IMG/VR virus record: IMGVR_UViG_3300032116_000258
Span: 1-54,979 of that record
Length of the DNA: 54,979 bases
Origin: a virus
Strand: one strand, 5' to 3'
Positions within the stretch are counted from its first letter, which is position 1, and every line of letters begins with the position of its first letter. The notes beneath the pieces are model-generated. The model worked only from the letters and a program-made list of their open reading frames with translations, did no database searches and had not been told where the DNA came from. This document shows, piece by piece, positions 4,779-51,556 of this stretch. The position numbers and the translations under genes are program-made.

Positions 4779-6317
4779 ATGCCTGTAAAAACCACTATTC
4801 AAGTACGTAGAGATACTGCGGCTAACTGGAACTCTGCCAACCCTGTTCTGGCTGCTGGTGAAATTGGCTACGAGACAGACACCAAATACTTTAAGATTGG
4901 TGATGGCACAACTAAATGGAACGGTGCCAATAACGATGGCGTAAATAAACTTCCATACCAAAACCAGGCTGGACCTACTGGTGCTACTGGAGCCACTGGT
5001 GCTACTGGAGCGACTGGACCTGCTGGTGCTACTGGAACAGCGGCTACTATTGCTGTCGGTACAGTAACAACAGGTTCTCCTGGTTCCTCAGCAACCGTTA
5101 CCAACGCTGGCACTTCATCTGCTGCGGTATTTAATTTCTCTATTCCCAAAGGTGATGCGGGAACTAACGGTACTAACGGTACTAACGGCACCAACGGTAG
5201 AGGATTTAACGGAGTAACTTCCACAAGTTCTGTTGCCGTTGGCACAGGCTCTAAAGTATTCGCTGTTGCATCTACTGGTGCATACGCCATTGGTACAAGA
5301 GTTAGAGTTGTGAACACTGGCACTCCAGCCAATTATGTTGAAGGTGTTATTACTTCTCTTACTTTAGACTCATCTATAACTGTAGATGTCGATACTGTTG
5401 GTGGTTCGGGAACCATAACCGCATGGACTTTTACTGTTGCAGGTAACGTTGGTGCTACTGGTGCCACTGGAGCGACTGGAGCGACTGGACCTACTGGTGC
5501 TACTGGTGCTACTGGACCTACGGGTGCTACGGGACCTACTGGTGCCACTGGTGCGGCTGGTGCTACGGGGGCAACTGGAGCGACTGGGGCTGGGTTTGAC
5601 GGGATTACTTCTACATCTTCTGTGAGCATTGGTACTGGTTCAAAGACAATCACCGTAAATAAAATTGGTGCTTTGGTTCAGGGAACAAGGATAAGAGTTG
5701 CTAGTTCCGCTACTCCAACAAATTACATGGAAGGTGTAATTACCTCCATTTCAACTCTTACTATTATCTTCACTTCGGATAATACTTCTGGTACAGGCAC
5801 TATTTCCTCATGGAACATCACTGTTGCTGGAGACAAAGGAACTCCAGTTCCTGCTGAATATACTGAACTAGCCACTGGAGCAATAAGTTATTCGGGAGGT
5901 CCTTCGTCAAATATTGCGTTAACAACAAGCCTTGTCTCAACTGGGTACAGAAAACTAGTTGTTGTCTTTTTAGGAGCAACCTCAGGTACAGGAACATTTT
6001 CGTTAAAGATTAATAGCACAACTACTACTGGGTATGCCTATACCTACAGCAATTATGGGTCAACTTCATTAAATTCTACTACTTCTGGTGCGTCATACAA
6101 CATTGGCAATGGCTCAAGCCTTAGTACAGGGGAAATAATTAACATAGAAATAATTGAGCCTGGATATAACCTAACCAATAAAAATGTTACTTGGACTAAC
6201 GGAAGTGGTTTTGGGTTTGGTACTAACCCCAACGTAACCGCCCCTGTAACCGCACTTTACTTTTCTGCCGCTACTACAACCCCTGGATTCTCTTGGACTG
6301 TTTATGGAGTTAAGTAA
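4779..6317 (+). CDS. Tail fibre with Mtd-N-like head and collagen repeats
   Basis: 512 residues. Residues 1-50 ([11 protein letters not shown]...[21 protein letters not shown]) match the N-terminal virion-attachment domain of fibre proteins such as the major tropism determinant (Mtd-N). Gly-X-Y collagen runs follow at about residues 65-88, 128-139 and 223-270. Two related modules of about 80 residues, each opening with GxGFxGxTSTSS (about 141-224 and 270-353), look like an internal duplication. The C-terminal 150 residues form a beta-rich tip. A clear ribosome-binding site (TAGGAG) precedes ATG 4779. Confidence 0.8.
5446..5590 (+). repeat. 9-bp-periodic collagen-coding repeat tract
   Basis: A tandem array of degenerate 9-base units (GGTGCTACT / GGAGCGACT / GGACCTACT) encodes Gly-Ala-Thr and Gly-Pro-Thr triplets. 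Similar shorter tracts lie at 659-762 and 4969-5040. The units are alike enough to recombine or slip in multiples of 9 bases, changing fibre length without breaking the frame. It is coding repeat, not CRISPR. Confidence 0.75.
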
Positions 6318-6927: not shown

Positions 6928-7143
6928 ATGCCACTAGTTAAACCCACTGTAGGACAGTCTTCTTGGGGCGGAACCCTAAATACTGCCCTAGATTACCTAG
7001 ACACTAAAGTTGGTCCATGGACCGCAGTACCCGCTACCGCAACTTCTTCAGGTACAGCAGGACAATTAGCCTACGCATCTGGTTATCTATATGTATGTGT
7101 AGCAACTAACACCTGGAGACGTGTAGCCCTAAGTAGTTGGTAG
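6928..7143 (+). CDS. Small fibre-type virion protein (71 aa)
   Basis: Residues 30-71 (VPATATSSGTAGQLAY...YVCVATNTWRRVALSSW) match a short C-terminal module that recurs in phage fibre and neck proteins, where it forms a small beta-barrel tip. Residues 1-30 would be an attachment segment. A GGAG ribosome-binding site precedes ATG 6928. This is the last clearly virion-like gene before the block of tiny basic genes. Confidence 0.6.
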   Translation: MPLVKPTVGQSSWGGTLNTALDYLDTKVGPWTAVPATATSSGTAGQLAYASGYLYVCVATNTWRRVALSSW

Positions 7144-7145
7144 TC

Positions 7146-7277
7146 ATGCCTTTTAAGTCTGAAGCACAACGTAAATGGATGTATGCTAATGACCCTAAAA
7201 TGGCGGCTAAATGGGAAGCACACACACCAGAGAAGAAACTTCCTAAAAAAGTAAAGAAGAAAACGAGGAAAAAATAA
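7146..7277 (+). CDS. Tiny basic protein, SEAQRKWM type (43 aa)
   Basis: Encodes MPFKSEAQRKWMYANDPKMA followed by a Lys/Arg-rich tail. The N-terminal 'PFKSEAQRKWM..N.P.MA..WE' pattern recurs in small phage proteins of unknown function. It is the first gene of a tandem block of basic mini-proteins; its TAA overlaps the next ATG (7275-7279). A DNA or RNA contact role is inferred from charge only. Confidence 0.7.
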   Translation: MPFKSEAQRKWMYANDPKMAAKWEAHTPEKKLPKKVKKKTRKK

Positions 7278-7486
7278 TGGCTCTACCTAGACCAAAAAAG
7301 CAGCATAAGACCAATGTGTCAAACACTAAAGACTCTATTGGTAAAGGCGAAAAGACCGTAAAGGCACAGCACAAAGGTAACATTAAAAAGAACCCTACCG
7401 ATACTGCTGGAGAAAAGGTTCACAGCCGCTACAGTACTACAGGTAAAGGACCTCGCAAGAAGGTCGGATTTAAGAGGGACAAATAA
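7277..7486 (+). CDS. Lys-rich mini-protein (69 aa)
   Basis: Very basic, low-complexity protein with many KK/KG steps and few hydrophobic residues, so probably disordered without a nucleic-acid partner. It starts and ends on TAATG overlaps and is translated as part of the mini-gene block. No recognisable family. Confidence 0.6.
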   Translation: MALPRPKKQHKTNVSNTKDSIGKGEKTVKAQHKGNIKKNPTDTAGEKVHSRYSTTGKGPRKKVGFKRDK

Positions 7487-7773
7487 TGCCTACATCTAAA
7501 GACCCTAGACTAGCCCGTGCTGGTGTATCAGGCTACAACAAGCCTAAGCGTACTCCAGACCATCCAACTAAGTCACACATTGTTGTTGCTAAACAGGGTG
7601 ACCAAGTTAAGACTATTCGTTTTGGACAGCAAGGTGTTTCTGGTTCTCCTAAAAAAGAAGGAGAGTCTGCGTCTTATCGTAAGCGTCGTGAATCGTTCAA
7701 GGCTCGTCATTCAGCAAACATTTCTAAAGGTAAGATGTCTGCGGCATACTGGGCAGACAAGGTTAAATGGTAA
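7486..7773 (+). CDS. Conserved basic phage protein (95 aa)
   Basis: Contains 'DPRLARAGVSGYNKPKRTP', 'KTIRFGQQGVSGSP' and 'FKARH' ahead of 'GKMSAAYWADKVKW'. From memory, very similar strings occur in small proteins of marine and freshwater phages, where they lack a known function. The well-spaced conserved Gly/Arg/Trp positions suggest a real fold, unlike the low-complexity neighbours. It begins and ends on TAATG overlaps. Confidence 0.7.
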   Translation: MPTSKDPRLARAGVSGYNKPKRTPDHPTKSHIVVAKQGDQVKTIRFGQQGVSGSPKKEGESASYRKRRESFKARHSANISKGKMSAAYWADKVKW

Positions 7774-8084
7774 TGGCTAAAAAGTTAAAACCAACAGCCA
7801 TAGTTAAAAGCACCGCTGAGGCTTATGCTAAAGGCGTAATGACTACAGGTCGTAAGCAAAAGAAAATTGCTAAAGATACGTCTATGCTTCCTGCTGAACG
7901 TCAGTTATATGTTGACCGTGAACATCAAGTTGCTAATGAAATTGCCCCACAGACGGTGCGAAGTGCAATACAGTTTGCCGCTAAAAAAGGTGTTTCTTTA
8001 CGTAAAGTCAAAACAGCATACTACACTGGTGCTGTTAAAGGTGTTGTTAAAGGTGCGGTGGAGAACATGAGGAATCGTGGCTAA
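7773..8084 (+). CDS. Basic helical mini-protein (103 aa)
   Basis: ATG 7773 is chosen over ATG 7767 because it gives the TAATG overlap used by its neighbours. The protein is Lys/Ala-rich and mainly helical (SAIQFAAKKGVSLRKVKTAYYTGAV). Its 3' end overlaps the GTG start of the next gene by 8 bases. Function unknown. Confidence 0.6.
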   Translation: MAKKLKPTAIVKSTAEAYAKGVMTTGRKQKKIAKDTSMLPAERQLYVDREHQVANEIAPQTVRSAIQFAAKKGVSLRKVKTAYYTGAVKGVVKGAVENMRNRG

Positions 8085-8286
8085 AGTAAAGACTCAAGAC
8101 GGTGTACGCCACACAGTTACTAAGAATAAAAAAGGCGAAATAATCGTTGACCACACCGATAAAAAAGGTGGCAAATACGACAAGATGAACCTTACCAAGG
8201 TTGCTGGCTCTAAGACAGTTAAAGATGGCGTAAAGGCGACTCGTAAGTGGCATAAAGAGAACCCACAGAAGAAAGGTAAAAAATAA
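8077..8286 (+). CDS. Basic mini-protein (69 aa), GTG start
   Basis: Starts at GTG 8077 inside the end of the previous gene. The N-terminal half is beta-hairpin-like (VRHTVTKNKKGEIIVDHTDKKG). The C-terminal half is a basic helix ending QKKGKK. It could be a small nucleic-acid-binding protein; only charge and context support that. Confidence 0.55.
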   Translation: MAKVKTQDGVRHTVTKNKKGEIIVDHTDKKGGKYDKMNLTKVAGSKTVKDGVKATRKWHKENPQKKGKK

Positions 8287-8546
8287 TGGCTAGTTCACTA
8301 AGTCCTAAGCAGTTTAAAGCACGAGCAGCAGCAGGTGCTCCTTTAGCAAAAGGTGTTAAAGGTCGTCAAGAAGCATTAATGAACATGGATTCTAATTCGA
8401 GAGAAGTGGCTGAAAGTAAAACTAGAGCCCGTTCAACTTCGCCCACTAAAGGAAAACAAAACATTGTAAACCGATACAGCGGTGTAGTTACTGGAAGCAC
8501 CAAGAAAGCAACTAAGTTTACGGTTAGAGAAAAACGAGTTAAGTAA
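8286..8546 (+). CDS. Basic mini-protein (86 aa)
   Basis: Opens with SSLSPKQFKARAAAGAPLAKG, then a charged, probably disordered stretch rich in Arg, Thr, Ser and Lys. Start and stop both lie on TAATG overlaps. No family recognised. Confidence 0.55.
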   Translation: MASSLSPKQFKARAAAGAPLAKGVKGRQEALMNMDSNSREVAESKTRARSTSPTKGKQNIVNRYSGVVTGSTKKATKFTVREKRVK

Positions 8547-8743
8547 TGGCAGCAAAAAAACCAGCAAAAAGTAAATCTAGGGTCAATGAGGCTGGCAACT
8601 ATACTAAGCCAGAACTTCGTGAACGTCTATTTAAAAAGATTAAAGCAGGTACTAAGGGCGGAGACCCAGGTGAGTGGTCTGCCCGTAAAGCACAACTTCT
8701 AGCCGCAGAATACAAGAAGGCTGGCGGAGGCTACAAGAACTAA
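8546..8743 (+). CDS. Conserved basic phage mini-protein (65 aa)
   Basis: Residues 22-63 (KPELRERLFKKIKAGTKGG..GEWSARKAQLLAAEYKKAGGGY) match, from memory, a motif recurring in small proteins of environmental phages: a basic helix, a Gly-rich turn, then an amphipathic helix. The conserved 'WSARKAQLL' suggests a compact helical hairpin. Function unknown; member of the mini-gene block. Confidence 0.65.
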   Translation: MAAKKPAKSKSRVNEAGNYTKPELRERLFKKIKAGTKGGDPGEWSARKAQLLAAEYKKAGGGYKN

Positions 8744-8985
8744 TGGCTAAAGCAAAACCTCAACAGTCACTAGACAAGTGGACTAAAGAAGAGTGGACTA
8801 CCTCAGATGGAAAACCATCTAAGGGTAAGAAACGCTATCTTCCAAAGAAGGCTTGGGAGGACCTAACTCCTGGTGAGAAGGCTGCTACTAACCGTGCGAA
8901 GAAAAAGGGTGATGGTGGAAAGGCTGGTAAGCAGTTTGTTCCTCAGCCTAAGAAGATTGCTAAGAAGACAGCGAGACATAGATAA
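8743..8985 (+). CDS. DUF5872-like basic mini-protein (80 aa)
   Basis: The order SLDKWTKEEW, SDGKPSKGKKRYLP, AWEDLTPGEKAATNRAKKKG, KQFVPQPKKIAKKTARHR resembles a family of small proteins in phages and large eukaryotic viruses that I recall as DUF5872; this was not checked. Conserved Trp and the 'RYLP' and 'ATNRAK' positions argue for a fold rather than a random Lys-rich sequence. Function unknown. Confidence 0.65.
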   Translation: MAKAKPQQSLDKWTKEEWTTSDGKPSKGKKRYLPKKAWEDLTPGEKAATNRAKKKGDGGKAGKQFVPQPKKIAKKTARHR

Positions 8986-9215
8986 TGGCTAAAAAAAGTA
9001 CAGTTACTATCCATAAGTGGGACCAGCAAAACGGTAATGGCTATGAGGTTGTTTGCGACAGCCCAAATCATGATGGTGGGTTTGCCATGGCTGAGACAAT
9101 GGCTGAGGCTAGAGAGTTAAAGAAATCTCCAGAAAATTGGTGTATGGGTTGTAACAGCGAAAAAAACTCATCAAATAACCCTAATATGGGGAGGCAGTTC
9201 AATGGCGGAGACTAA
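8985..9215 (+). CDS. Small putative metal-binding protein (76 aa)
   Basis: Less basic than its neighbours. Cys24 with His29 and Cys53-X2-Cys56 could bind one zinc ion. Residues 5-40 are predicted beta (TVTIHKWDQQNGNGYEVVCDS). It starts on a TAATG overlap and ends 14 bases inside the HNH-like gene. Confidence 0.5.
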   Translation: MAKKSTVTIHKWDQQNGNGYEVVCDSPNHDGGFAMAETMAEARELKKSPENWCMGCNSEKNSSNNPNMGRQFNGGD

Positions 9216-9492
9216 GAAGTTTGGACCCTATAAGGGCTCTAAAGCCAATGGTGGCAGACCAATCTATGTCTACAAAACTAAGCAAAAAGATGGTACTTGG
9301 AAAACCACAAGTAAAAATAAGGCTAGAGCAGACTACGAAAGCAAACATGGTAAACTGAGTAAAGATACTGATGTTGACCATAAAGATAATGGTGGGCGTA
9401 AAGGTCGGGATGGCATGAAAAACCTTCAAGCCATGAGCCACTCTAAGAACGTGGCTAAAGAGAACAAGCGTAGAGCAGGAAAGAAGAAGTAA
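9202..9492 (+). CDS. HNH-like small protein (96 aa)
   Basis: Residues 57-90 read DVDHKDNGG...MKNLQAMSHSKNVAKEN, matching the beta-beta-alpha metal-binding fold of HNH nucleases, with His60, Asn74 and His80 in plausible positions. The N-terminal part (GPYKGSKANGGRPIYVYKT) is a basic beta segment. It could be a nicking or homing-type HNH enzyme, or a degenerate HNH-fold DNA-binding virion protein, since the full Zn-Cys scaffold is absent. It lies inside the basic mini-gene block. Confidence 0.6.
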   Translation: MAETKKFGPYKGSKANGGRPIYVYKTKQKDGTWKTTSKNKARADYESKHGKLSKDTDVDHKDNGGRKGRDGMKNLQAMSHSKNVAKENKRRAGKKK

Positions 9493-9816
9493 ATGGCAGT
9501 AACTAAAAAGACCTTAGCCAAAGACACCAAGAAATACGCAGGTCAAACAGTCCGATTTCGTGCAACTAAAGAAGTTGCAAAACAAACAGGCGTAGAAGGT
9601 AAGTCCTGGAAAGATGCTAGAGATTTTACTCCTAAGCAAGAAAAGGCTTATAGAGCGTTTAATAAGGCTGATAGGGAACTTGGTAAAGGTGTAGGAGAAA
9701 AAGTTACACCTAGAAGTAAGGGTCAAAACACTAAAATTACTAAGAGAGTCAACCAGTCTATTGTTGCTCGTGGCGGCAAGCCAGTAAAGACTTACACAAA
9801 GAAAGCAGGTAAGTAA
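9493..9816 (+). CDS. Basic mini-protein (107 aa)
   Basis: Lys-rich protein with a helical centre (SWKDARDFTPKQEKAYRAFNKADRELG). It ends in KKAGK, a C-terminal tail shared with other members of the block. The next gene starts on its stop (TAATG). Function unknown. Confidence 0.55.
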   Translation: MAVTKKTLAKDTKKYAGQTVRFRATKEVAKQTGVEGKSWKDARDFTPKQEKAYRAFNKADRELGKGVGEKVTPRSKGQNTKITKRVNQSIVARGGKPVKTYTKKAGK

Positions 9817-9953
9817 TGGCTGCAAAGAAACCTTGTACTTGTGGAACATGTCCAGCATGTAAGACAAAGAAGAACCCTAACATGAAGCGTGACCAGAGTC
9901 TTGCAGCCCGCAAGAAGAACTCTCTAGGCAAAGTCCGTGGAGGAAAGAAGTAA
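9816..9953 (+). CDS. Tiny cysteine-knuckle basic protein (45 aa)
   Basis: Residues 6-15 read PCTCGTCPAC, giving four cysteines (7, 9, 12, 15) close enough for a single zinc knuckle, followed by a 30-residue Lys/Arg tail ending GGKK. TAATG overlap at the start. Probable nucleic-acid contact, inferred from the combination of knuckle and basic tail. Confidence 0.55.
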   Translation: MAAKKPCTCGTCPACKTKKNPNMKRDQSLAARKKNSLGKVRGGKK

Positions 9954-9955
9954 AA

Positions 9956-10009
9956 ATGGATTGTAACTGCGACAACTGCAACTGCAAGAAGGAGCCTACT
10001 AATGGCTAA
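9956..10009 (+). CDS. 17-residue Cys-rich micropeptide
   Basis: ATG 9956 to TAA 10009 encodes MDCNCDNCNCKKEPTNG, with four cysteines in a C-X-C-X2-C-X-C pattern. It lies 2 bases after the previous stop. Its 3' end overlaps the start of the next gene (ATG 10002), and AGGAAAG upstream could act as ribosome-binding site. It may be a metal-binding peptide or simply a translational-coupling leader for the next gene. Confidence 0.35.
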   Translation: MDCNCDNCNCKKEPTNG

Positions 10010-10298
10010 GAAACCGTCATACGAAAAAGGTAAGTACACCGAGTCTAAAGACAAGAAGAAGGATGCAGCGATGCTCCGTAAGGCTGGTCTAACCGAAAAA
10101 GATGAGAAGAAGGCTTTTAAGAAGGCTGACGATGCTCATGGTAAGGCTAAGAAGCCTAAGACTATGGCTGAAGACAAGAAGATTGATGCCAAGATTATCA
10201 AGGGTATCAAGGCTAAAGAAGCCGCTCACGAGAAGCGTGAGGGTAAAAAAGGCGAGAAAGCCGAAGACAAGCGTGAAAAGAAAGCAGGAAAGAAATAA
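10002..10298 (+). CDS. Lys-rich histone-tail-like protein (98 aa)
   Basis: About a third of the residues are Lys, with Ala, Glu and Asp making up much of the rest: a highly charged, probably helical or disordered chain ending REKKAGKK. It resembles histone H1-type or nucleoid-condensing tails in composition, though acidic residues partly balance the charge. The last 25 bases of the gene junction (10276-10300) are repeated exactly at the next junction. Confidence 0.55.
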   Translation: MAKKPSYEKGKYTESKDKKKDAAMLRKAGLTEKDEKKAFKKADDAHGKAKKPKTMAEDKKIDAKIIKGIKAKEAAHEKREGKKGEKAEDKREKKAGKK

Positions 10299-10300
10299 TG
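10276..10300 (+). repeat. Gene-junction repeat, copy 1 (25 bp)
   Basis: Bases 10276-10300 and 10611-10635 are identical over 25 bases. Each covers the codons for the KAGKK tail, the stop and the next ATG, and includes AGGAAAG, which acts as ribosome-binding site for the next gene. A close variant lies at 9798-9818. The repeat fits duplication of neighbouring genes or strong selection on the coupled junction. Confidence 0.7.
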
Positions 10301-10633
10301 GCTAAAACACCAAAGCCAGTTCGTAAGGCTGGCAAAGTAACTACCCGTTCTGCCAGAACGCCTGACGGTAAAAAAGTCACTTATCAGACCAGTAAAGAAT
10401 ACAAATCCCCTGTTACGGGAGATGGTGGAAAACCTCCCCTAGATAAATCTGGAAAGTCGGATAAGCAAACATGGGGACTAATGGGTGTAAAAACAAACGC
10501 TCAAATGAAAAAAGCCATTAAAGGTGGCGAGTTTCCAGCAGGTGTTACTGGGCTAAATGGCAAGGCAAGAGCACCAATCTCAAAATACGGTAAAACTAGT
10601 CCTTCATTTAAAAAGAAAGCAGGAAAGAAATAA
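10298..10633 (+). CDS. Basic mini-protein (111 aa)
   Basis: Contains 'TYQTSKEYKSPVTGDGG', 'KQTWGLMGVKTNAQMKKAI' and a Lys-rich C-terminus ending KKKAGKK, the tail shared with the preceding gene. The middle has Trp, Met and hydrophobic positions that could form a small helical domain. TAATG starts and ends. Function unknown. Confidence 0.55.
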   Translation: MAKTPKPVRKAGKVTTRSARTPDGKKVTYQTSKEYKSPVTGDGGKPPLDKSGKSDKQTWGLMGVKTNAQMKKAIKGGEFPAGVTGLNGKARAPISKYGKTSPSFKKKAGKK

Positions 10634-10635
10634 TG
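10611..10635 (+). repeat. Gene-junction repeat, copy 2 (25 bp)
   Basis: Exact second copy of the 10276-10300 element, 335 bases downstream, again at a TAATG junction between basic mini-genes. Confidence 0.7.
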
Positions 10636-10992
10636 CCGCTAAATAATAAAACAAAGCCGAGTAAAGGCAAAGCAGCAATAAAGGCATCGGGTCGCAATCT
10701 AAACGGTACGCCTGTTAGTAAAAATGTTATTGGTGCAGGTAAAAAGGCTAAAGCATCACTCAAAAAAGACGCAGTTAAAAAATTGGTCCGTGCCAAGGCT
10801 GACGAACAACTTGGTATTTCTCGTGGACTAGGACCTGACGAGGGTTATGGTTACAAGAAGGCTTTAAGTGCTTCTAACAGGGCTGGTAAGGCTGGTCTAC
10901 CTATGAACGGACCAGTAGTTGCACTGGGTTCAGGGGCTAGAAAAACTGCTTCCAAGCGTATTAGGCAATCCGTGAACGCTCGTAAAAAGTAA
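10633..10992 (+). CDS. Basic mini-protein, last of block (119 aa)
   Basis: Lys/Ala/Gly-rich with a helical part (residues 38-60) and a Gly-rich C-terminal part that includes 'GLGPDEGYGYKKAL' and ends 'RQSVNARKK'. It is followed by a 134-base gap holding a strong terminator, so it closes the mini-gene transcription unit. Function unknown. Confidence 0.55.
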   Translation: MPLNNKTKPSKGKAAIKASGRNLNGTPVSKNVIGAGKKAKASLKKDAVKKLVRAKADEQLGISRGLGPDEGYGYKKALSASNRAGKAGLPMNGPVVALGSGARKTASKRIRQSVNARKK

Positions 10993-11025: not shown

Positions 11026-11052
11026 AGCCAGCATTATGCTGGCTTTTCTTTT
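11026..11052 (+). terminator. Rho-independent terminator
   Basis: A perfect 8-bp stem (AGCCAGCA at 11026-11033, TGCTGGCT at 11037-11044) closes a 3-base TTA loop and is followed by TTTCTTTT. It ends the transcript of the fibre and mini-gene region and separates it from the connector/tail operon. Confidence 0.85.
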
Positions 11053-11126: not shown

Positions 11127-11315
11127 ATGTCATCTAAGGACTGGAAACCTTGGTGGGAACGTGTTGGCGATATACCCAACCCTCAAGAACGACGAGAGTT
11201 CATTAGAGCGGTTGGTGGAGCCATCAAACCTACCTTTGGTCAAGAAGTTTTGCTATCCATAATTGCTGGCTACGTTGGCGGTAAAATTGCTCAACGTACA
11301 GGCGATGAGAAGTGA
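11127..11315 (+). CDS. Small protein with one hydrophobic helix (62 aa)
   Basis: The N-terminal half is charged and aromatic (KDWKPWWERVGDIPNPQERREF). Residues 41-56 (VLLSIIAGYVGGKIAQ) form a hydrophobic, Gly-containing helix that could be a membrane anchor. Its end overlaps the next gene by 4 bases (GTGA). Placed ahead of connector-like genes; role unknown. Confidence 0.5.
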   Translation: MSSKDWKPWWERVGDIPNPQERREFIRAVGGAIKPTFGQEVLLSIIAGYVGGKIAQRTGDEK

Positions 11316-11623
11316 AGAAACTTATAGAGGCTACGCAGAAAGCAAAGCAGGACACCGCAAGGTATATGACCGCCCAATTGCGTAATCATGCAATACAAAA
11401 CGGCTGGGATGCAGACGTCGCTGATACCTTGCAGGTTACTCACGAGAATGGCAAATTTGTTGCCAAAGTTCACCCTGACTATAGTGACCGTGCTTTTGTT
11501 CATGAGTACGGCGATGAGAACGTTAAGCCTACCGCCACAATCCGCAAGTTTATGAACGACCCTAAAGTAGTTAACGATGCTTTTATGGTCACGTTAGATA
11601 AGCGTTGGAAGGAGATGAAATGA
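11312..11623 (+). CDS. Connector/tail-completion protein, HK97 gp10-like
   Basis: 103 residues starting at GTG 11312 on a GTGA overlap. The C-terminal half (FVHEYGDENVKPTATIRKFMND) has the 'E-[FY]-G...P...R' arrangement of HK97 gp10-like proteins, which close the head-tail joint or cap the tail tube. The N-terminal half is helical. Its position just before a terminator-like protein and the sheath fits a neck protein. Confidence 0.5.
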   Translation: MKKLIEATQKAKQDTARYMTAQLRNHAIQNGWDADVADTLQVTHENGKFVAKVHPDYSDRAFVHEYGDENVKPTATIRKFMNDPKVVNDAFMVTLDKRWKEMK

Positions 11624-12256: not shown

Positions 12257-13840
12257 ATGACCTATGGTCGTCCTGGAGTCTATGTAAACGAGACTCTAAT
12301 ACCTGCTCCAGTTGCATCCGCAGGAGCGGCTAATGCTGCTGGTGCCGCAATTGGTGCATTTCCTCAGGGTCCTTCAACTGTAACCCTAGTTACATCTTGG
12401 TATGACTTTGTTCAGAAATTTGGTGGCTTTAACGCTACTTACCCAGCAACTGTTGGTGTTAACCAGTTCTTTGCAAACGGTGGTTCAGAACTTTATGTTC
12501 GCCGTGTGCTTGGTGCGGGTGCCGCTGTTGCTTCTGTCTCACTACCAAAATCTGGTGGTGGAAACCTTGGTACAGCCTCTTCTGTAAACAAGGGTGCTGA
12601 CAGCAACAACCTACGTGTTCAGGTTTCAGGAACTGCAACCGCAAACTACTACAACCTAACTGTTCTAAAGGAAGTAGAGACTGCTTACCTAGGCACTAAC
12701 AACGCAAGCGGAACTAACGACGTTATTGTAGAGCAGTTCACCAATGTGCGTTTCGATGTCGCTACTTCTCCTGACTATGCTCAGACTGTTGTAAATGCAA
12801 CTTCGCAGTACATTACTTTGTCTTTGTCTAGCACAGGTACTCCAACTACTCAGGCAATTTCTGCTGTACTTCCTTTAACTGGTGGTTCAGATGGTTCTGC
12901 TCCAGTAACTGCCGATTACACCGCAGTTGTTCCAGCAGACGGAAGTTCGGACTTTGACTCGATTGCTCGTCCACTAGTAATCTTTGCCCCTAACCTATAC
13001 GAAAAGTTAGTGGTAGATGGTGACGCTTCTGCATCAACTAACCTTGCAACTGTTCACGATGCTTTGATTGCATGGGCTAACGCTGGTGCTGGTTTTGCAA
13101 TTATTGACACCGCTCCGAGCCTAACTGTTGCTCAGGCTATTGCCTACATCACTGCTCGTACAGTATCTTCACAGGCTGCTGGTTACTACCCTAACTACTA
13201 TGTACAGGACCCTTTAGCAAGAAGCCCTCAGGCTTTGCGTAAGACTTCTCCTGCTGGTGCAGTTGCTGGTATTTACTTGGCTACCGACAAGTCTGACGGA
13301 CCATTTAAGTCCCCAGCAGGTATCAACGCAAGCATCCGTACCGCAGTATCACTAGAGCGTGCATTTACCCCAGCAGACCTAGATTCGCTGAACAGCGGAA
13401 CTTACGTTAGCGGTGGAAGCACTGTTTACGGAACTTCTGTTAACGCCATCAGAAACCTTCCTGGTGCTGGTGTAGTTGTAATGGGTGGACGCACTCTAAA
13501 GCAGGATGGTACTGCTAACAAGTATGTAAGCACTAGACGTTCTTTGATTTATGTGAAGAAGCAGTTGCAGAACCTAACTGAGTTCGCCGTGTTCCGCAAC
13601 AACGACGCAAAACTATGGGACCAGTTGAGAACCGTTATTAGCGTGTTCTTGAATGAGTACCGTAACCAAGGTGGTTTGCGTGGAACCTCACCTGCCCAGG
13701 CGTATTACGTCAAGGTAGATTCAAGCATTAATACCCCAGAAAGCATTGCGACTGGTGTAGTAAACATTCAGGTTGGTGTGGCTCTTGAGTACCCTGCCGA
13801 ATTCGTAGTTATCAACCTAAGCCAAATTACTGGTAACTAG
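12257..13840 (+). CDS. Contractile tail sheath protein
   Basis: 527 residues. The start 'YGRPGVYVNETLIP' and the 'IGAFPQGP...VTSWYDFVQKFGG...VNQFFANGGSELYVRRV' stretch are hallmark N-terminal sheath sequences. The C-terminus has the conserved 'LWDQLRTVISVFLNEYRNQGGLRG' helix and a final 'VGVALEYPAEFVVINLSQ' strand that hooks neighbouring subunits. It surrounds the tube and drives contraction. Good ribosome-binding site (AAGGAG) and position before the tube gene, as in nearly all contractile phages. Confidence 0.95.
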   Translation: MTYGRPGVYVNETLIPAPVASAGAANAAGAAIGAFPQGPSTVTLVTSWYDFVQKFGGFNATYPATVGVNQFFANGGSELYVRRVLGAGAAVASVSLPKSGGGNLGTASSVNKGADSNNLRVQVSGTATANYYNLTVLKEVETAYLGTNNASGTNDVIVEQFTNVRFDVATSPDYAQTVVNATSQYITLSLSSTGTPTTQAISAVLPLTGGSDGSAPVTADYTAVVPADGSSDFDSIARPLVIFAPNLYEKLVVDGDASASTNLATVHDALIAWANAGAGFAIIDTAPSLTVAQAIAYITARTVSSQAAGYYPNYYVQDPLARSPQALRKTSPAGAVAGIYLATDKSDGPFKSPAGINASIRTAVSLERAFTPADLDSLNSGTYVSGGSTVYGTSVNAIRNLPGAGVVVMGGRTLKQDGTANKYVSTRRSLIYVKKQLQNLTEFAVFRNNDAKLWDQLRTVISVFLNEYRNQGGLRGTSPAQAYYVKVDSSINTPESIATGVVNIQVGVALEYPAEFVVINLSQITGN

Positions 13841-13861: not shown

Positions 13862-14554
13862 ATGGCTACAATCCTAAATAACCGCTCCAACATTGCGACT
13901 GACCCGATTAGAAACTTTAGGTTTCTTGTCACTTTTAAGCCGCAAAACAGCATTACTAACAGAGAGTTAGTTAATGGAAACATTACCGAAACTAATACTC
14001 CTCAAAACTATGGTGACTGGGCAACCAAGTTAGCGGCAGTTCCGTTTGGGTTTACCTCTGTGAGTGGTATGGCTGTGTCTACAGACAGCATCCCTTATCG
14101 TGAAGGTGGGTATAACACCACCGTCCACCAGATTCCAGGGCAGACTTCCTTTGCTCCTCTAACGCTTCAGCGTGGTGTAGTGCTAGGTTCAAGTCAGAAC
14201 TGGGGTTGGATGAACCAGTTGTTCCAGACTGTTCAGGGAACTGTAACTCGTACAGCGGCAGAAAACTTCCGTGTTGATATTGACATCGATGTTCTAAGCC
14301 ACCCTCTAGCGTCAACTGCTACCGCAAACAACAGTGCATACACTGGAGATTACACTGACCACGTTTCTATGCGTTTCAAGGTATACAACGCATGGATTAC
14401 CTCTCTTGCATACTCAGACCTAAACGCTGGTGACAACGCTATCCTTGTAGAGCAGATGTCTTTAGTGCACGAAGGTTTTGATGTCATTTGGGGTAAGGAC
14501 CTTACTGATGTTGGTTCAGCCGCAATGATTGATTCGGCTTACCTAGTTCCGTAA
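13862..14554 (+). CDS. Tail tube protein (gp19-like)
   Basis: 230 residues. 'DPIRNFRFLVTF' at the N-terminus, 'FTSVSGMAVSTDSIPYREGGYNTTVHQIPG' and 'LTLQRGVV' are the standard beta-barrel signature of T4 gp19-type tube proteins. It forms the inner tube delivered through the cell envelope. It directly follows the sheath with a clear AAGGAG site. Confidence 0.93.
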   Translation: MATILNNRSNIATDPIRNFRFLVTFKPQNSITNRELVNGNITETNTPQNYGDWATKLAAVPFGFTSVSGMAVSTDSIPYREGGYNTTVHQIPGQTSFAPLTLQRGVVLGSSQNWGWMNQLFQTVQGTVTRTAAENFRVDIDIDVLSHPLASTATANNSAYTGDYTDHVSMRFKVYNAWITSLAYSDLNAGDNAILVEQMSLVHEGFDVIWGKDLTDVGSAAMIDSAYLVP

Positions 14555-15388: not shown

Positions 15389-15551
15389 TCTGGTAAGTTA
15401 CGAAGATTTAATTTACACCTGGGCAGCATTGTCTAAGTTGTATAAAAGTTGGACGTTGAGCGAAATACGTGAGATGTCCTATCGTGAAAGGTTGAATTGG
15501 TTAGAGATAGCCAGAGCAAGCGGTAAGGTGGTGAAAGACAGTGGCGGATAA
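15381..15551 (+). CDS. Frameshift extension of tail assembly chaperone
   Basis: The frame entered by the +1 slip encodes about 56 residues, with 'SLVSYEDLIYTWAALSKLYKSW' followed by 'TLSEIREMSYRERLNWLEIARASGKV', an amphipathic helical domain typical of the T part of GT-type chaperones, which recruits tube subunits to the tape measure. There is no credible independent start: the only upstream in-frame start is GTG 15342 with a poor ribosome-binding site. The frame ends 11 bases inside the tape-measure gene. Confidence 0.6.
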   Translation, partial: ASSLVSYEDLIYTWAALSKLYKSWTLSEIREMSYRERLNWLEIARASGKVVKDSGG

Positions 15552-18150
15552 GAACTTAGTTGGCGATATAGAGTCAGCGAATAATTCTCTTTCCAAAATG
15601 GAAAGGCTGCTAGAGAAACTCTCTCAAACTGCTGGTAAATTCACTACCACTTTAAGTCGTGGGCTGGGACCAGTAGGAAACGGTGGATTCGGTAACCGTG
15701 GTTATGGTGTTGGTTCACCGAACGTAATGAACCAGTCATTTGGTTCGTTTGGCTTTATGCCACCTACTGGAAATGCTGGGGCAACATTCCAATGGGCTAA
15801 CCGCATGAACATGGGCATCAGTGCCGCTCAAGGCGGTTTGCGTGCTGCTGGAGGTGCGGTTGTAGGTGGCTTTATGGCTATGCCAGATGTAGCCATGACC
15901 ACAGCCCGTTCTACCGCTTTCTATGGGGCTAACCTTATTCAAGGTATGGGGGCTGGAGGACGAACTAGAATTGCCAACGCCACTTTCGGGGCTATGAAGG
16001 GCGGCATTAGCGAGCCAGGATACGATGCAGCGACTGCGGCTATTCTAAGTAACATGGGCGTCAGCATGACTACTACTGGCGTTAATAAAAATCAATTTTC
16101 AACTTTGGCACGTTCCACTGCAAATGCCGCCAAATATTTAAACATAGATAACGTTTCTGCGGCTCAAGCATTAGGTGGGTTAACTCAGGGCAGTACTTCT
16201 AGTGCGTTGATGAGAAACTTTGGTATCTACACTACTAATCCAATTACTGGAGAGAGATTATCTCCTACTCAAATCTTTGCCCAGTTAAACCAGCGTATGA
16301 CTGGTGGGCAGAAGTTGACCCGTGAACAGTTGATGACTTCGATGCAAGGTGGTGCTTTAGCACAAAACCTACAGTTGTCTGGTCTTGATGCGACACAGCA
16401 GCAGTTAGCCTATCAATATATGCTTGATGCTGCTTCTGGTAAAAACATGGATTTAAGTGACGACAAATTAATGGCAAGATTGCAAAAAGAAGCGGGTATT
16501 AACCCAATGCAATCTCAATACTCTGCTAACACTTCTCAAGCCGCAACTATGAACGCAGCATCCGATGCTTACATTGAGGGTATGAAAGAAGCCACTAAAT
16601 ACATTGGTCAATTCAATAAGGCAATGCAAGGCTTCTTAAAGAGTGAGCCTGGTAAGGCTATGGCTCGACTTAACGCTGGTGTTGACCTCGCTCAAAGAGA
16701 CCCTAGTATTGCTGGTGGTATTGCGGGTGCTTCGATGGCTTTAGGTGGAGCAGGTCAACTTATTGGGGCTGTTGCTGGTGGTGCTTACTTATCTCGTTTG
16801 TTAACTAAGCAGGGAATCATCGGTAAAGGCGGTGGAGCAGGAGTTCAGATTGGTGGTAAAACATATAAGCCTGGACAGAAACTTCCTAAAGGGTATAAAT
16901 GGGGCGGTAAAGGTGGCACAAGAGTAGTAGACGCTAAAGGAAGATTTGTTAGTGCAAATGCTTTAGCAAAAGGTGGGGCTGGTGCTTTATCTAAAGGTCT
17001 TGGCAAAGCGGTTCCAATTCTTGGTACTGCTTTAACTGGGTTTAGTTTGTATAACAACATTATGGAAGGGGACATGCGTGGAATTGCAGGAGATGTTGGA
17101 GGTATCCTTGGTGGTTTAGGTGCCGCTGCTGGTCTTACTGCTGCTACTGGAGGTGTGGGTATTATTGGTTCGACAGCGGCATATGCTGGTGGTTCTTTTG
17201 CGGGAAGTATGGCTGGTCAAGGTCTTTATGACTTCTTTACAGGAAGTGGCGGTAATGGTGGACCAAATCTAATCGGCACAGGTTCAAACACCGCAACTGG
17301 TGGAGCCACTGCAAACTTTAAACTTATTCACCCTGTAGGTAAAGCAAACATTGTTTGTCGTTATGGTCAATATGATGAACTTCACCCTAATGGTCACTGG
17401 GCAGTTGACTGGGCAGCAACCGAAGGTACCCCTATTATGGCGGCGGCTGATGGTACTGTGACATTTACGGGCGGTAATGCAAGAAACACTATGGGCACAT
17501 CAAACAACAGTTATGGTTTGCACATTAAAGTAGACCACGGAAACGGTTATACAACGCTGTATGCTCACGTCAGTGGATTTGATGCCAGTGTTGGTCAGCA
17601 AGTAAAGCAGGGTCAACCAATTGCACGTGTAGGAAATACTGGGTTTTCTCAGGCTCCTCACCTTCACTTTGAACTTTGGAAAGGCGGTCAAAGAATTGAC
17701 CCTTCTCCTTTCCTAGGTGCAAATTATGCGGATAGTTCGGGTGGGGCTGGGTATAGTTCTGCCTCGTCAGGTTCAGCCAGTAATGGCATGATGGGAAGTG
17801 GTGACGCTGGGTTATTAGGGTTCAGTAGCGGTGCTGCTGGAAACGGGTTAAAGGTTCCTTCGTCGTATAAAGGTGCTGCAATTGGTCAAACTGGCATGGG
17901 AGGCGGAATTTCAAATGCTGCTACAGGAAGAAACCAAAAAGTATTAGGTCAAGCCAGTACTAGCACTAATGTGGGTGGAAGTATTGGAACTACAGGTAGT
18001 GGTGATGGACCTGGACCTAGAGGTGGAAATAACGTGGTAATTAATTTAACTATTGGTCAAGCATCAGACTCCGAAGCAAGACGATTTGCCAAACTTGTTA
18101 AAGAGTATATTGACTCAGACACTTTAACTTCTAACATGGGGAGATTCTAA
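15541..18150 (+). CDS. Tape measure protein with M23 peptidase domain
   Basis: 869 residues, GTG start overlapping the chaperone extension. It begins with a coiled coil (residues 5-35). The middle is long, Ala/Gly-rich and helical, with hydrophobic segments (about 395-425 and 490-560). Residues about 595-725 form an M23/LytM endopeptidase domain: His619-X3-Asp623 and His707-Leu-His709 are the zinc and catalytic residues. A Gly/Ser-rich linker and a short helical tail follow. The protein sets tail length, and the peptidase probably trims peptidoglycan during injection. No other cell-wall hydrolase was recognised in the window. Confidence 0.85.
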   Translation: MADKNLVGDIESANNSLSKMERLLEKLSQTAGKFTTTLSRGLGPVGNGGFGNRGYGVGSPNVMNQSFGSFGFMPPTGNAGATFQWANRMNMGISAAQGGLRAAGGAVVGGFMAMPDVAMTTARSTAFYGANLIQGMGAGGRTRIANATFGAMKGGISEPGYDAATAAILSNMGVSMTTTGVNKNQFSTLARSTANAAKYLNIDNVSAAQALGGLTQGSTSSALMRNFGIYTTNPITGERLSPTQIFAQLNQRMTGGQKLTREQLMTSMQGGALAQNLQLSGLDATQQQLAYQYMLDAASGKNMDLSDDKLMARLQKEAGINPMQSQYSANTSQAATMNAASDAYIEGMKEATKYIGQFNKAMQGFLKSEPGKAMARLNAGVDLAQRDPSIAGGIAGASMALGGAGQLIGAVAGGAYLSRLLTKQGIIGKGGGAGVQIGGKTYKPGQKLPKGYKWGGKGGTRVVDAKGRFVSANALAKGGAGALSKGLGKAVPILGTALTGFSLYNNIMEGDMRGIAGDVGGILGGLGAAAGLTAATGGVGIIGSTAAYAGGSFAGSMAGQGLYDFFTGSGGNGGPNLIGTGSNTATGGATANFKLIHPVGKANIVCRYGQYDELHPNGHWAVDWAATEGTPIMAAADGTVTFTGGNARNTMGTSNNSYGLHIKVDHGNGYTTLYAHVSGFDASVGQQVKQGQPIARVGNTGFSQAPHLHFELWKGGQRIDPSPFLGANYADSSGGAGYSSASSGSASNGMMGSGDAGLLGFSSGAAGNGLKVPSSYKGAAIGQTGMGGGISNAATGRNQKVLGQASTSTNVGGSIGTTGSGDGPGPRGGNNVVINLTIGQASDSEARRFAKLVKEYIDSDTLTSNMGRF

Positions 18151-21422: not shown

Positions 21423-21823
21423 TGGCTAATACTGAGTACACTGTTAGTTTGCCTTTTACTCTTGGGTTTACGGGTTCAGTAGAGACCACAATAGACCAAA
21501 CTAAAATTTGGTCTGACAAGGTTTTAACCGTAGTGGGAACTGCTTTAGGTGAGCGTACCCAGCGGTACTACTTTGGAAGCAAAGTTCATTTTGAAGCATT
21601 TGAAAATGTTGAACAGGCTAAAGAAGGTATTGAAAAAGCGGTATCAGAAGCATTTTCAGCATATCTTCCACTATTAACTTTTAGGGGAATAAGAAGTTCT
21701 TACAGCCCTGATACTGGGCAATTAAATGTCACAATCCTATATTCGCTTCCTGATGAGGCATTAAGTGAAGTAAAAATAGGCAATGTTCAAATTGACGGCA
21801 ATCAACCACCTAAGGAATTTTAA
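21422..21823 (+). CDS. Baseplate wedge protein gp25-like
   Basis: 133 residues. 'VLTVVGTALGERTQRYYFGSKVHFEAFE' followed by a C-terminal beta-sheet fits the GPW/gp25 family, which joins hub and wedge and starts sheath assembly. TAATG overlaps on both sides. The central 'GER..R..FG' motif is the family hallmark. Confidence 0.85.
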   Translation: MANTEYTVSLPFTLGFTGSVETTIDQTKIWSDKVLTVVGTALGERTQRYYFGSKVHFEAFENVEQAKEGIEKAVSEAFSAYLPLLTFRGIRSSYSPDTGQLNVTILYSLPDEALSEVKIGNVQIDGNQPPKEF

Positions 21824-23712
21824 TGGCTGAGAAAAAAATAACCACATCTATCGATTACACCAGTAGAGACTTCTTTTCAATTAGAGAAGACTTAATTACT
21901 CGTATAAAGAACCGAGTGGACGCTAATGGTAAAGTATGGAATGGAAGTGACCCTGCTGATTTTGGAGTAGCAATCGTTGAAGCCTTTGCTCATGTCGGTG
22001 ATTTAACTAACTATTACATTGATAGGGCGGCAAATGAGTCTTACATCGGAACTGCTACACAACGCCAGACGCTTTTAAACTTGGCGTCAATGTATGGCTA
22101 TCAAGTGTCAGGATGGCGTCAGGCTTATGTGGATGTGACTATAAGCAATAGCGGTGCTACCAGCCTAGTTGTTCCTGCTAACACACTGTTCTCGGTAACA
22201 ATCACTGTGACCACTAATGGCTCGTCAACTACCTACCAAGAGTATTACACTCTTCAAGATGATGTGACTGTGGGCGGGGGTGGCACTGCCGCAGGAGTTT
22301 TAATTCATGGCAGAAATGTGAGTGCTATAGACAGTAACGCCGCAGATGTAAGCGACCCATACGATATCCCTGGTGAACGTTTAGGTTATTCGGACGGGTT
22401 TTCTAATCAGTCGTATCGACTAAAGTACAATCAGGTGGCTGAAGGAACTGTTGAAGTATTTGTGCGAAACGGTAATTCTTTTGATAAATGGTCTGAAGTT
22501 ACCAATCTAAGTGAATATGGACCACAGGAGTTTGTTTACACAATAACTTATGATGGCGATAATTACGCTTACATAAATTTTGGTGATGGAGTTTCTGGTT
22601 CTATACCAGTATTTGGCGATGATATTAAAGCACAATACTACGTTGGTGGTGGGCTAATCGGAAACATTGAGGGCGGAAAGTCGTTCTCTATAGTTAGTGT
22701 TCCGCTATCTAGTGGAGTTTTAAAGGCAGATTTAACCCCAATCTCCGTAAGCAATAGCGAGTCGGGTTATGGTGGAGAGGACCCAGAGTCCAACGATAGT
22801 ATCAGGCTGAACGCCCCAGCCGCCTTACGGTCTTCACAACGTGCTGTTAGTTTAGATGATTTTAAGAGTTTGGCTTTAAGTGTCGCAGGGGTGGGTAAGG
22901 CTGCCGCATATGCTTCTGCACCTACCTCTATCAATGTATATGTGGGACCGAGTGTATCCGATACATCTAATGATTACTTTCCTGGATTTGCGGCAAACGG
23001 AACTACTTTAAAAACAAGTTGGACAGATTTACAGTCAATCGTAAGTTCAGAATTTGGTGGAAGAACGCAGATTGGAACTACTGTCACTATTCTTCCTCCT
23101 GCGTATGTTCCTGCGGATGTAGTAGTTGAATATGTTGCGGAAACTGGTTACTCTGATTCGCAAATTATTACTGCCCTAAACGCAGGGGTAGTGTTTGATT
23201 ACGGCTATAACTACCTAGACTTTAACCAGAACATAAGACCAGAAAAACTGGAGCAAAGCCTCAGTAGTATTGATGGTGTTGATTCGGTTAAGGTAGTCGA
23301 ACTTTATCGTAATGGGGCTAGTGCGGCTCGAACCACTCTGGTTCCAGCGGCTGGTGAATACTTTGTATTTAAGGATGTTAATACAAAGATTTATCCAATC
23401 TGTAGTTTGAGAAATCTTGTTGTAACTATTGGTAACGGAACTATGCCTACCTTTAATGCCCTAGTTAAAACCTATGCTTTTACTAGCACAAGTTCCACGA
23501 TGACATTTACTCCAACATCAGTAAATACGGCTTCTACTCTTACCTATACTTTTACTAATGGTTCGGGAACAGTGACTGGTCCGACATCTATCACAAGTGG
23601 TGTTGCCTCTTCGTCATTAACTTTGACTACAGGTCTAAACACAATTGCCGTAACTTCTACTTCTTCCGATAGCCTCAACACAAACACTTATTACATCAAG
23701 GTAACTAAGTAA
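21823..23712 (+). CDS. Baseplate J-like wedge protein with Ig/cadherin-like C-terminus
   Basis: 629 residues. 'DPADFGVAIVEAFAHVGDLTNYYIDRAANESYIGTATQRQTL' is the N-terminal signature of baseplate J/gp6 wedge proteins, followed by the 'VYTITYDGDNYAYINFGDGVSG' domain and the conserved 'RAVSLDDFKSLALSV' helix. Residues about 545-629 add a Thr/Ser-rich beta-sandwich (cadherin-like or Ig-like) not needed for the wedge, probably surface-exposed and able to bind cell-surface polymers. Confidence 0.88.
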   Translation: MAEKKITTSIDYTSRDFFSIREDLITRIKNRVDANGKVWNGSDPADFGVAIVEAFAHVGDLTNYYIDRAANESYIGTATQRQTLLNLASMYGYQVSGWRQAYVDVTISNSGATSLVVPANTLFSVTITVTTNGSSTTYQEYYTLQDDVTVGGGGTAAGVLIHGRNVSAIDSNAADVSDPYDIPGERLGYSDGFSNQSYRLKYNQVAEGTVEVFVRNGNSFDKWSEVTNLSEYGPQEFVYTITYDGDNYAYINFGDGVSGSIPVFGDDIKAQYYVGGGLIGNIEGGKSFSIVSVPLSSGVLKADLTPISVSNSESGYGGEDPESNDSIRLNAPAALRSSQRAVSLDDFKSLALSVAGVGKAAAYASAPTSINVYVGPSVSDTSNDYFPGFAANGTTLKTSWTDLQSIVSSEFGGRTQIGTTVTILPPAYVPADVVVEYVAETGYSDSQIITALNAGVVFDYGYNYLDFNQNIRPEKLEQSLSSIDGVDSVKVVELYRNGASAARTTLVPAAGEYFVFKDVNTKIYPICSLRNLVVTIGNGTMPTFNALVKTYAFTSTSSTMTFTPTSVNTASTLTYTFTNGSGTVTGPTSITSGVASSSLTLTTGLNTIAVTSTSSDSLNTNTYYIKVTK

Positions 23713-51070: not shown

Positions 51071-51556
51071 ATGCAAATACTCGTAGAACTAGAAGGCGTA
51101 CTAAGAGGACAAAAAGATGAGCCAATTGCCACGGGCATCATTCTCACAGCCCAATTAGCAGCCCATAATCAAATCATTTTTATGACGGAGTTATCCCAAG
51201 CCGAAGCAGAGCAGTGGATTAACGTCAATAAAGTCGTTGATTACGACATGTTAGTAGACGCCAACCTATCTCTGGTAGATGAGCCATTAAAGCATCGTCA
51301 GTTAAAGTACGCTCGTGCTAGAGGCAGTGTTGATTTAGTAATCACCAATGACCCATCATTTTGGGCGTATGCGTTTGACCAAGGCATTACCTGCATGATG
51401 TTTGGTGTCCCATCCTATACCCGCCCAGAGTTTCGCCCAGATGCCCCTAAAAAAGTCAGGGCATGGAGTGAGATTGAGTTAGCCGTTGCTAAACAAAACG
51501 AGTTGCGTACAACAGATAAGCGTTTAACACGCACTGAAGGCACAAGGTTTGAATGA
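51071..51556 (+). CDS. HAD-fold-like protein with altered nucleophile (161 aa)
   Basis: The start 'MQILVELEGVLRG' corresponds to HAD motif I (DxDGVLRG) but with Glu6 and Glu8 instead of Asp. 'NQIIFMTELSQAE' could be motif II, and 'VDLVITNDPSFWAYAFDQGITCMMFG' the later core. The Asp-to-Glu changes suggest a non-catalytic or altered enzyme. ATGA overlap with the TGT-like gene. Confidence 0.5.
   Translation: MQILVELEGVLRGQKDEPIATGIILTAQLAAHNQIIFMTELSQAEAEQWINVNKVVDYDMLVDANLSLVDEPLKHRQLKYARARGSVDLVITNDPSFWAYAFDQGITCMMFGVPSYTRPEFRPDAPKKVRAWSEIELAVAKQNELRTTDKRLTRTEGTRFE

Follow-up and report, generated by a model that had tools for sequence, protein, structure and literature searches.

What is the purpose of a long run of very small, very basic genes set among the structural genes of a tailed phage? 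The question is raised by the viral record IMGVR_UViG_3300032116_000258 of IMG/VR, the whole of which (positions 1–54,979; 54,979 nucleotides) was analysed and is referred to below as the window. Its positions 7146–10992, termed the block, contain 16 open reading frames (ORFs) of 17–119 residues in a single coupled run. The block lies, as the original prediction made from this sequence had it, between a fibre gene (4779–6317) and the tail sheath gene (12257–13840). Our best explanation, in which our confidence is a little short of even, is that the block encodes accessory proteins that bind DNA, are produced together with the virion proteins and reside in the head. We place them in the head interior because a basic block under purifying selection occupies one site in the relatives, because the domain of ORF3 is found inside portal-MuF and prohead-protease proteins, and because homologues of ORF3, ORF7 and ORF8 lie in structural regions of other phages; DNA binding is proposed because Rho_N-like tails occur on bacterial orthologues of the ORF7–ORF8 pair.

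The number and sizes of the ORFs agree with those first reported. Their summed length is 3885 nucleotides, compared with a block span of 3847 nucleotides. Overlap, which had been predicted throughout, is found at 13 of the 15 junctions: ten are exact TAATG sequences and three are longer (at the starts 8077, 9202 and 10002), leaving two junctions without overlap (9493 and 9956). Stretches resembling a Shine–Dalgarno (SD) sequence, with at least four consensus bases, precede 13 of the 16 starts, compared with 26% of random positions. The richness in lysine and arginine is equally clear. The isoelectric point (pI) is above 9.3 for 14 of the 16 ORFs, against 6 of the 66 other window genes (Fisher 1.8e-9), the median content of Lys plus Arg is 27% against 12% in the rest of the window, and the block carries a net charge of +224 over 1279 residues. 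The exceptions in pI are ORF9 (8985–9215), which is acidic (pI 5.6), and ORF13, which has merely 17 residues. The terminator expected to close the block is represented by the hairpin AGCCAGCATTATGCTGGCT-TTTCTTTT at 11026–11044, just 3′ of the last gene; terminator-like sites in the region number 9 against 8.0 in shuffled sequences, which is no surplus, and sigma-70-like promoters in the region are not in excess. C-terminal GKK or AGKK ends often coincide with the SD sequence of the next gene (GGA AAG AAA TAATG), so that some of these lysine ends, and with them part of the C-terminal lysine bias of the block, may be a by-product of SD–TAATG coupling.

Nine families (ORF1, 2, 3, 5, 7, 8, 10, 12 and 14), each with at least four informative pairs, have median ratios of nonsynonymous to synonymous substitution (dN/dS) of 0.115–0.306, indicating purifying selection. 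ORF4 contributes two pairs and ORF11 one, and the coverage excludes ORF6, 9, 13, 15 and 16, which have no usable conservation data. We conclude from the low ratios in the nine families that most of the block ORFs are real genes. Pfam searches with single window proteins gave almost no matches for block members.

Absence of synteny in relatives had been named beforehand as an outcome that would speak against the original suggestion. A mostly basic block is instead present at the same site in all 44 relatives that retain both flanking genes, with 6–16 small ORFs in the interval and a pI above 9.3 for 390 of the 463 ORFs; these counts are approximate because ORF calling in the relatives was mechanical. 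The gene content turns over, the 385 distinct ORFs falling into 79 families, 46 of which are singletons. Block proteins begin with Met-Ala in 47% of cases compared with 23%, and their ends favour Lys or Arg. Near the block site, DUF6321 (PF19846) exceeds its cut-off in 6 of 10 relative records searched and DUF6496 (PF20106) in 7 of 10; both are absent from the window's own block, except that part of ORF3 weakly resembles DUF6321 (14.7 bits). Four relatives, all of them fragments, gave no match to PF14550. A family of 14 strongly acidic small ORFs (about 41 residues, pI 4.1) lies inside the otherwise basic blocks of relatives.

Conserved cores had been suspected in the ORFs starting at 7486, 8546 and 8743, and profile searches bear this out: ORF3 matches PHROG 7595 (E 6.8e-41), ORF7 PHROG 17747 (E 3.2e-35) and ORF8 PHROG 14910 (E 1.6e-33). 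A viral scan with ORF3 gave at least 600 matches, and at least 49 phage records match. The AlphaFold model of ORF3, a confident one with a predicted local distance difference test score (pLDDT) of 89.9, consists of a β hairpin followed by C-terminal helices. Among viral predicted structures it matches a small protein of Phage NCTB, the 1393-residue portal protein of phage CL131, ICP1 ORF125, proteins annotated XkdF and ChaB, and a Tunisvirus protein; Foldseek gave no match to ORF3 in the PDB at E 0.001. The NCTB protein belongs by profile to DUF5754 (PF19058; E 2.5e-11) and recovers ORF3 homologues by tblastn with E values down to 4e-8. Alignment of NCTB/DUF5754 with the ORF3 family by hhalign gives a probability of 97.5, or 98.7 with the set of fused domains, and the fold match of ORF3 to a DUF5754-type protein has an E value of 4.2e-5. 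The PF19058 profile itself matches 22 of 54 ORF3 homologues weakly (best E 0.0024) and ORF3 at 10.4 bits, under the curated cut-off of 27.4, and for this reason we call ORF3 related to the family rather than a member of it. Profile comparison and the predicted fold thus indicate a relationship between ORF3 and Tlr6F/DUF5754, which is known from polinton-like viruses, giant viruses and phages. Tlr6F is conserved and widespread in polinton-like viruses, virophages, Nucleocytoviricota and phages, and has been called probably important since 2015, its function being unknown (PMC4642659). Like ORF3 it is a small protein; ORF3 differs in being one gene of a basic cassette.

The ORF3 domain also occurs within larger proteins: a portal-InPase-MuF protein and prohead proteases of the XkdF type. 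In gp012 of Aphanizomenon phage CL131 it spans residues 535–604, after Phage_portal_3 (60–419) and before InPase (631–752) and MuF (991–1103). In Aeromonas phage 2L372X and Vibrio phage 1.101.O it lies upstream of Peptidase_S78_2, and the gene stands between those for portal and capsid; in ICP1 ORF125, the predicted prohead protease Gp125 (PMC7567579, PMC9040626), it is recognised by fold match. CL131 gp012 is of the polyvalent portal/MuF/InPase kind, and for InPase-portal proteins both packaging and injection have been predicted (PMC5512222). Polyvalent proteins have at least two domains per polypeptide, whereas the block ORFs are small (17–119 residues) and single-domain. A separate 1781-residue protein (L232:21-5363) carries the ORF3 domain at its C-terminus, and the remainder has no Pfam match over cut-off. 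Several candidates were set aside: three apparent ORF3 fusions (L023, L040 and L053) have low-complexity Arg/His-rich leaders that look like out-of-phase upstream reading and were not counted, and Peptidase_S78_2 labels on the GR7B and GR11A proteins, unconfirmed by Pfam, were not used. Matches of ORF3 homologues to Phage_tail_tube_init (26 of 54, best E 0.0012), and of ORF3 to chloroplast L24 (E 0.048) and a baseplate component (E 0.2), are short and under cut-off, possibly reflecting a shared SH3-like hairpin.

ORF7 and ORF8 behave as one module. ORF8 is present at 76 of the 80 loci found by ORF7, the order of the two is kept in 96 of 97 pairs, and the exact one-base overlap is retained in 59. 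At seven loci the two are naturally fused into proteins of about 131 residues; an apparent ORF7 fusion (L051), with a low-complexity Arg/His-rich leader of the out-of-phase type, was not counted. Four fusion records match DUF5872 (PF19197) with E values of 3.4e-7 to 2.7e-4 per record, covering 4–96, 5–100, 2–110 and 2–109 of the 116 profile positions. Against the cut-off of 27.5 bits, the phage fusions reach at most 23.9 bits and the window ORFs give no match; bacterial orthologues exceed it in 5 of 10 genomes. The window phage has, split into two overlapping genes, a module that in fused and bacterial form resembles DUF5872. In the literature searched, DUF5872 appears in a gene list only.

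A scan of bacterial and archaeal genome assemblies with the fused ORF7–ORF8 sequence found 236 matching stretches, of which many lie on chromosomes (Methylobacterium, Aureimonas, Pseudomonas and others). Of the 80 retrieved, 64 carry a C-terminal Rho_N-like motif. Rho_N matches map to the orthologue tail in 3 of 5 genomes, with E values of 3.7e-4 to 1.7e-3, just under cut-off, and the two best PDB matches of an orthologue-tail profile are to the transcription terminator Rho (E 0.012 and 0.021). Two full-length bacterial orthologues run on into a region that we take to be DUF3140-like, and one of the two ends in a long Ala/Lys/Thr-rich, histone-H1-like tail. The Rho_N-like tails are the best evidence, if indirect, on the activity of the module, and suggest that it works on nucleic acid.

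Homologues of ORF3, ORF7 and ORF8 in other phages keep similar company. One lies between the minor head (MuF) and coat protein genes of cyanophage KBS-S-2A; in S-CBS2 they follow the capsid gene and have ORF1- and ORF3-like genes as neighbours. In Roseobacter phage CRP-9, in CRP-1 and in HMO-2011 they lie within the run ahead of terminase and portal, in Methylophilales phage MEP401 they stand immediately ahead of terminase, portal, scaffold and capsid, and in SIO1, P12053L and ICBM2 they close the structural arm. At ten further loci the neighbouring large gene is of virion or lysis type in six, a replication gene in one and without an assigned family in three.

On the explanation we favour, the small Lys/Arg-rich proteins of the coupled cassette would be synthesised together with the products of the neighbouring virion genes, presumably from late transcripts, and would bind DNA. 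They would then enter the prohead and join the head interior of this contractile-tailed phage, where they might coat or order the packaged DNA or pass with it into the next host. The acidic ORF9, the HNH-like ORF10 and the Cys-rich ORF12 and ORF13 would not act as DNA coats but as cargo or partners. The closest parallel is with the internal proteins of phage T4 (IPI, IPII and IPIII), which are small, basic, packaged in the head at about 300 copies each, bind DNA at low salt and vary between relatives (PMC9026906). The block shares with them small size, basic charge, several genes and a variable locus near virion genes, but it has far more genes and no detected capsid targeting sequence, its core members spread far beyond one phage group, and packaging of its proteins is a prediction. 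Because no targeting sequence was detected, we do not claim membership of the T4 class. The likeness to protamine- and histone-like condensing proteins lies in composition and in the Rho_N-like tails on the cellular orthologues.

Several findings weigh against our best explanation. Bacteria carry the ORF7–ORF8 module as a chromosomal gene of its own as well, which means that it could act independently of virions. In unrelated phages the surroundings of ORF7 show a modest enrichment of further basic genes (53% versus 40%), and the large gene closest to one unrelated locus is on the opposite strand and belongs to replication. No shared N-terminal targeting peptide was detected among the block proteins beyond the Met-Ala preference, although a divergent signal is possible. 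No virion proteomics covering any homologue was found in the literature, and the searched passages of the cobavirus paper do not mention virion mass spectrometry. Lastly, the Streptomyces myophages LuckySocke and BRock have no basic block between fibre and sheath, although their fibre–sheath–tube order is that of the window and their pre-sheath gene is homologous to the window gene at 11605 (35% identity); judged from gene order, the block is either an accessory insertion or was lost in these two. Since the block is not uniform and is missing from two isolates with the same gene order, it is unlikely to be strictly essential for packaging. The original suggestion of proteins that condense packaged DNA, escort it, enter the host with it or act on host nucleic acids is partly supported, with the virion-gene setting, the 44 relatives, the ORF3 fusions and the Rho_N-like tails in its favour.

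Some of these points serve a different explanation, which we think unlikely though to be taken seriously: that the proteins are not virion parts but stay in the infected cell as nucleoid-like or RNA-binding proteins and, late in infection, condense, protect or silence the nucleic acids of the phage or its host. The bacterial ORF7–ORF8 orthologues, chromosomal, without phage neighbours and with tails of nucleic-acid-binding type, would fit it, as would the exceptional DUF5754 gene of Phage NCTB, which sits away from the head genes beside those for a transcription elongation factor and thymidylate kinase. It does not explain why the ORF3 domain is joined to portal-MuF and to prohead protease, or why homologues lie among structural genes in most phages examined. 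The attachment to prohead proteases, seen by sequence in at least two lineages and by fold in a third (ICP1), together with the KBS-S-2A gene between MuF and coat protein, would be explained if the ORF3 domain and perhaps its companions were head-assembly factors, such as scaffold or protease cofactors, and departed or were broken down before maturation. We hold this to be improbable: viruses whose capsids are unrelated also have members of the Tlr6F family (PMC4642659), the two Streptomyces myophages, with no block at this site, assemble all the same, and most block members are not universal.

It is decidedly improbable, in our view, that the block is simply an accessory counter-defence island whose turnover mirrors host defence systems and whose charge is incidental. 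High turnover at a fixed site is what such an island would show, and the anti-restriction factor IPI of T4 is likewise a basic internal protein (PMC9026906). Conservation of ORF3 and of the ORF7–ORF8 pair over very different hosts, with low dN/dS, is nevertheless unlike host-specific inhibitors, and the uniform charge would need a separate reason; a packaged counter-defence role is compatible with our head-interior explanation. That most of the ORFs are spurious products of AT-rich, Lys-codon-rich DNA is scarcely credible. The five ORFs that lack conservation data leave room for it, but it is already largely refuted by the purifying selection in nine families, the SD sequences before most starts and the exact junctions kept in unrelated phages.

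The families of the block are already known, as orphans; we found neither the cassette nor the fusions to portal and protease described in the literature searched, most subscription papers being outside its scope. A Tlr6F-type domain fused to portal-MuF and prohead proteases, and standing beside a DUF5872-like pair in the basic cassette of cultured phages, offers a concrete handle on an orphan family. Presence in the virion and DNA binding, if true, would give a function to four orphan viral families and would reveal a modular set of chromatin-like passengers in tailed phages. It is conceivable, though we would not expect it, that small basic DNA-associated domains (Tlr6F/DUF5754, DUF5872, DUF6321, DUF6496 and companions), at least one of which has relatives on bacterial chromosomes, form a toolkit that tailed phages have in common with eukaryotic DNA viruses; polycistronic phage cassettes would then supply the virion with chromatin-like proteins, and the Tlr6F domain would tie a portal, a protease or a solo protein to the packaged genome.

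Two further members had been singled out for their motifs. In ORF10, described at first as HNH-like, D59, H60, N74 and N83 are invariant across 24 homologues in the pattern DH...NL...N, and the structure model has a pLDDT of 83. The motif is that of HNH endonucleases (HNH_3, PHROG 333), but the HNH_3 match (12.8 bits) is under the Pfam cut-off of 24.8, and Foldseek found no match in the PDB at E 0.001; we regard ORF10 as a probable HNH-type nuclease. Neither ORF10 nor ORF5 has a match in named phages at E 0.001. The Cys knuckle attributed to the ORF at 9816 is present (CTCGTCPAC).

Table 1. The block, its terminator and its flanking genes (window coordinates).
Feature	Position	Strand	Description
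Left flanking gene	6928..7143	+	71 residues, C-terminal part of tail-protein families; PHROG 17312, E 2.1e-12; conserved left border in relatives
ORF1	7146..7277	+	43 residues, basic (MPFKSEAQRKWMYAN...); 23 homologous loci; dN/dS 0.255
ORF2	7277..7486	+	69 residues, basic; dN/dS 0.306
ORF3	7486..7773	+	95 residues; PHROG 7595; Tlr6F/DUF5754-related domain
ORF4	7773..8084	+	103 residues, basic; dN/dS 0.36 from two pairs only
ORF5	8077..8286	+	69 residues, basic, GTG start; common in related blocks (73 loci); dN/dS 0.179
ORF6	8286..8546	+	86 residues, basic, near-orphan; predicted ORF, putative translation
ORF7	8546..8743	+	65 residues; PHROG 17747; N-terminal half of DUF5872-like module
ORF8	8743..8985	+	80 residues; PHROG 14910; C-terminal half of DUF5872-like module
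ORF9	8985..9215	+	76 residues, acidic (pI 5.6), four Cys; near-orphan
ORF10	9202..9492	+	96 residues, basic, HNH-nuclease-like; dN/dS 0.120
ORF11	9493..9816	+	107 residues, basic; dN/dS 0.349 from one pair
ORF12	9816..9953	+	45 residues, basic, Cys knuckle (CTCGTCPAC); dN/dS 0.115 (4 pairs)
ORF13	9956..10009	+	17 residues, Cys-rich; SD GGAGG; putative ORF
ORF14	10002..10298	+	98 residues, Lys-rich, charged, low complexity; dN/dS 0.166
ORF15	10298..10633	+	111 residues, basic
ORF16	10633..10992	+	119 residues, basic, near-orphan
Intrinsic terminator hairpin and T-rich tail	11026..11044	+	from sequence
Right flanking gene	11127..11315	+	conserved border in relatives

The window belongs to an aquatic contractile-tailed phage, the sheath gene being followed by those for the tube (13862–14554) and a baseplate wedge protein (21823–23712), with replication genes (DnaB-like helicase and DNA polymerase) downstream of the tail and baseplate modules. 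The nearest named sheaths, at about 32% identity, are those of Streptomyces myophages such as BRock and LuckySocke, so that an actinobacterial host is plausible. A 70-kb record is near-identical to the window. An 869-residue tape-measure-like protein (15541–18150) includes a peptidase/endolysin-type domain at about residues 600–726, and an ORF of 421 residues on the minus strand (53657–54922) is without any PHROG match. Positions 51553–53043 encode a member of the Queuine tRNA-ribosyltransferase family (PHROG 887, E 3e-56), which in phages can be part of 7-deazaguanine DNA modification.

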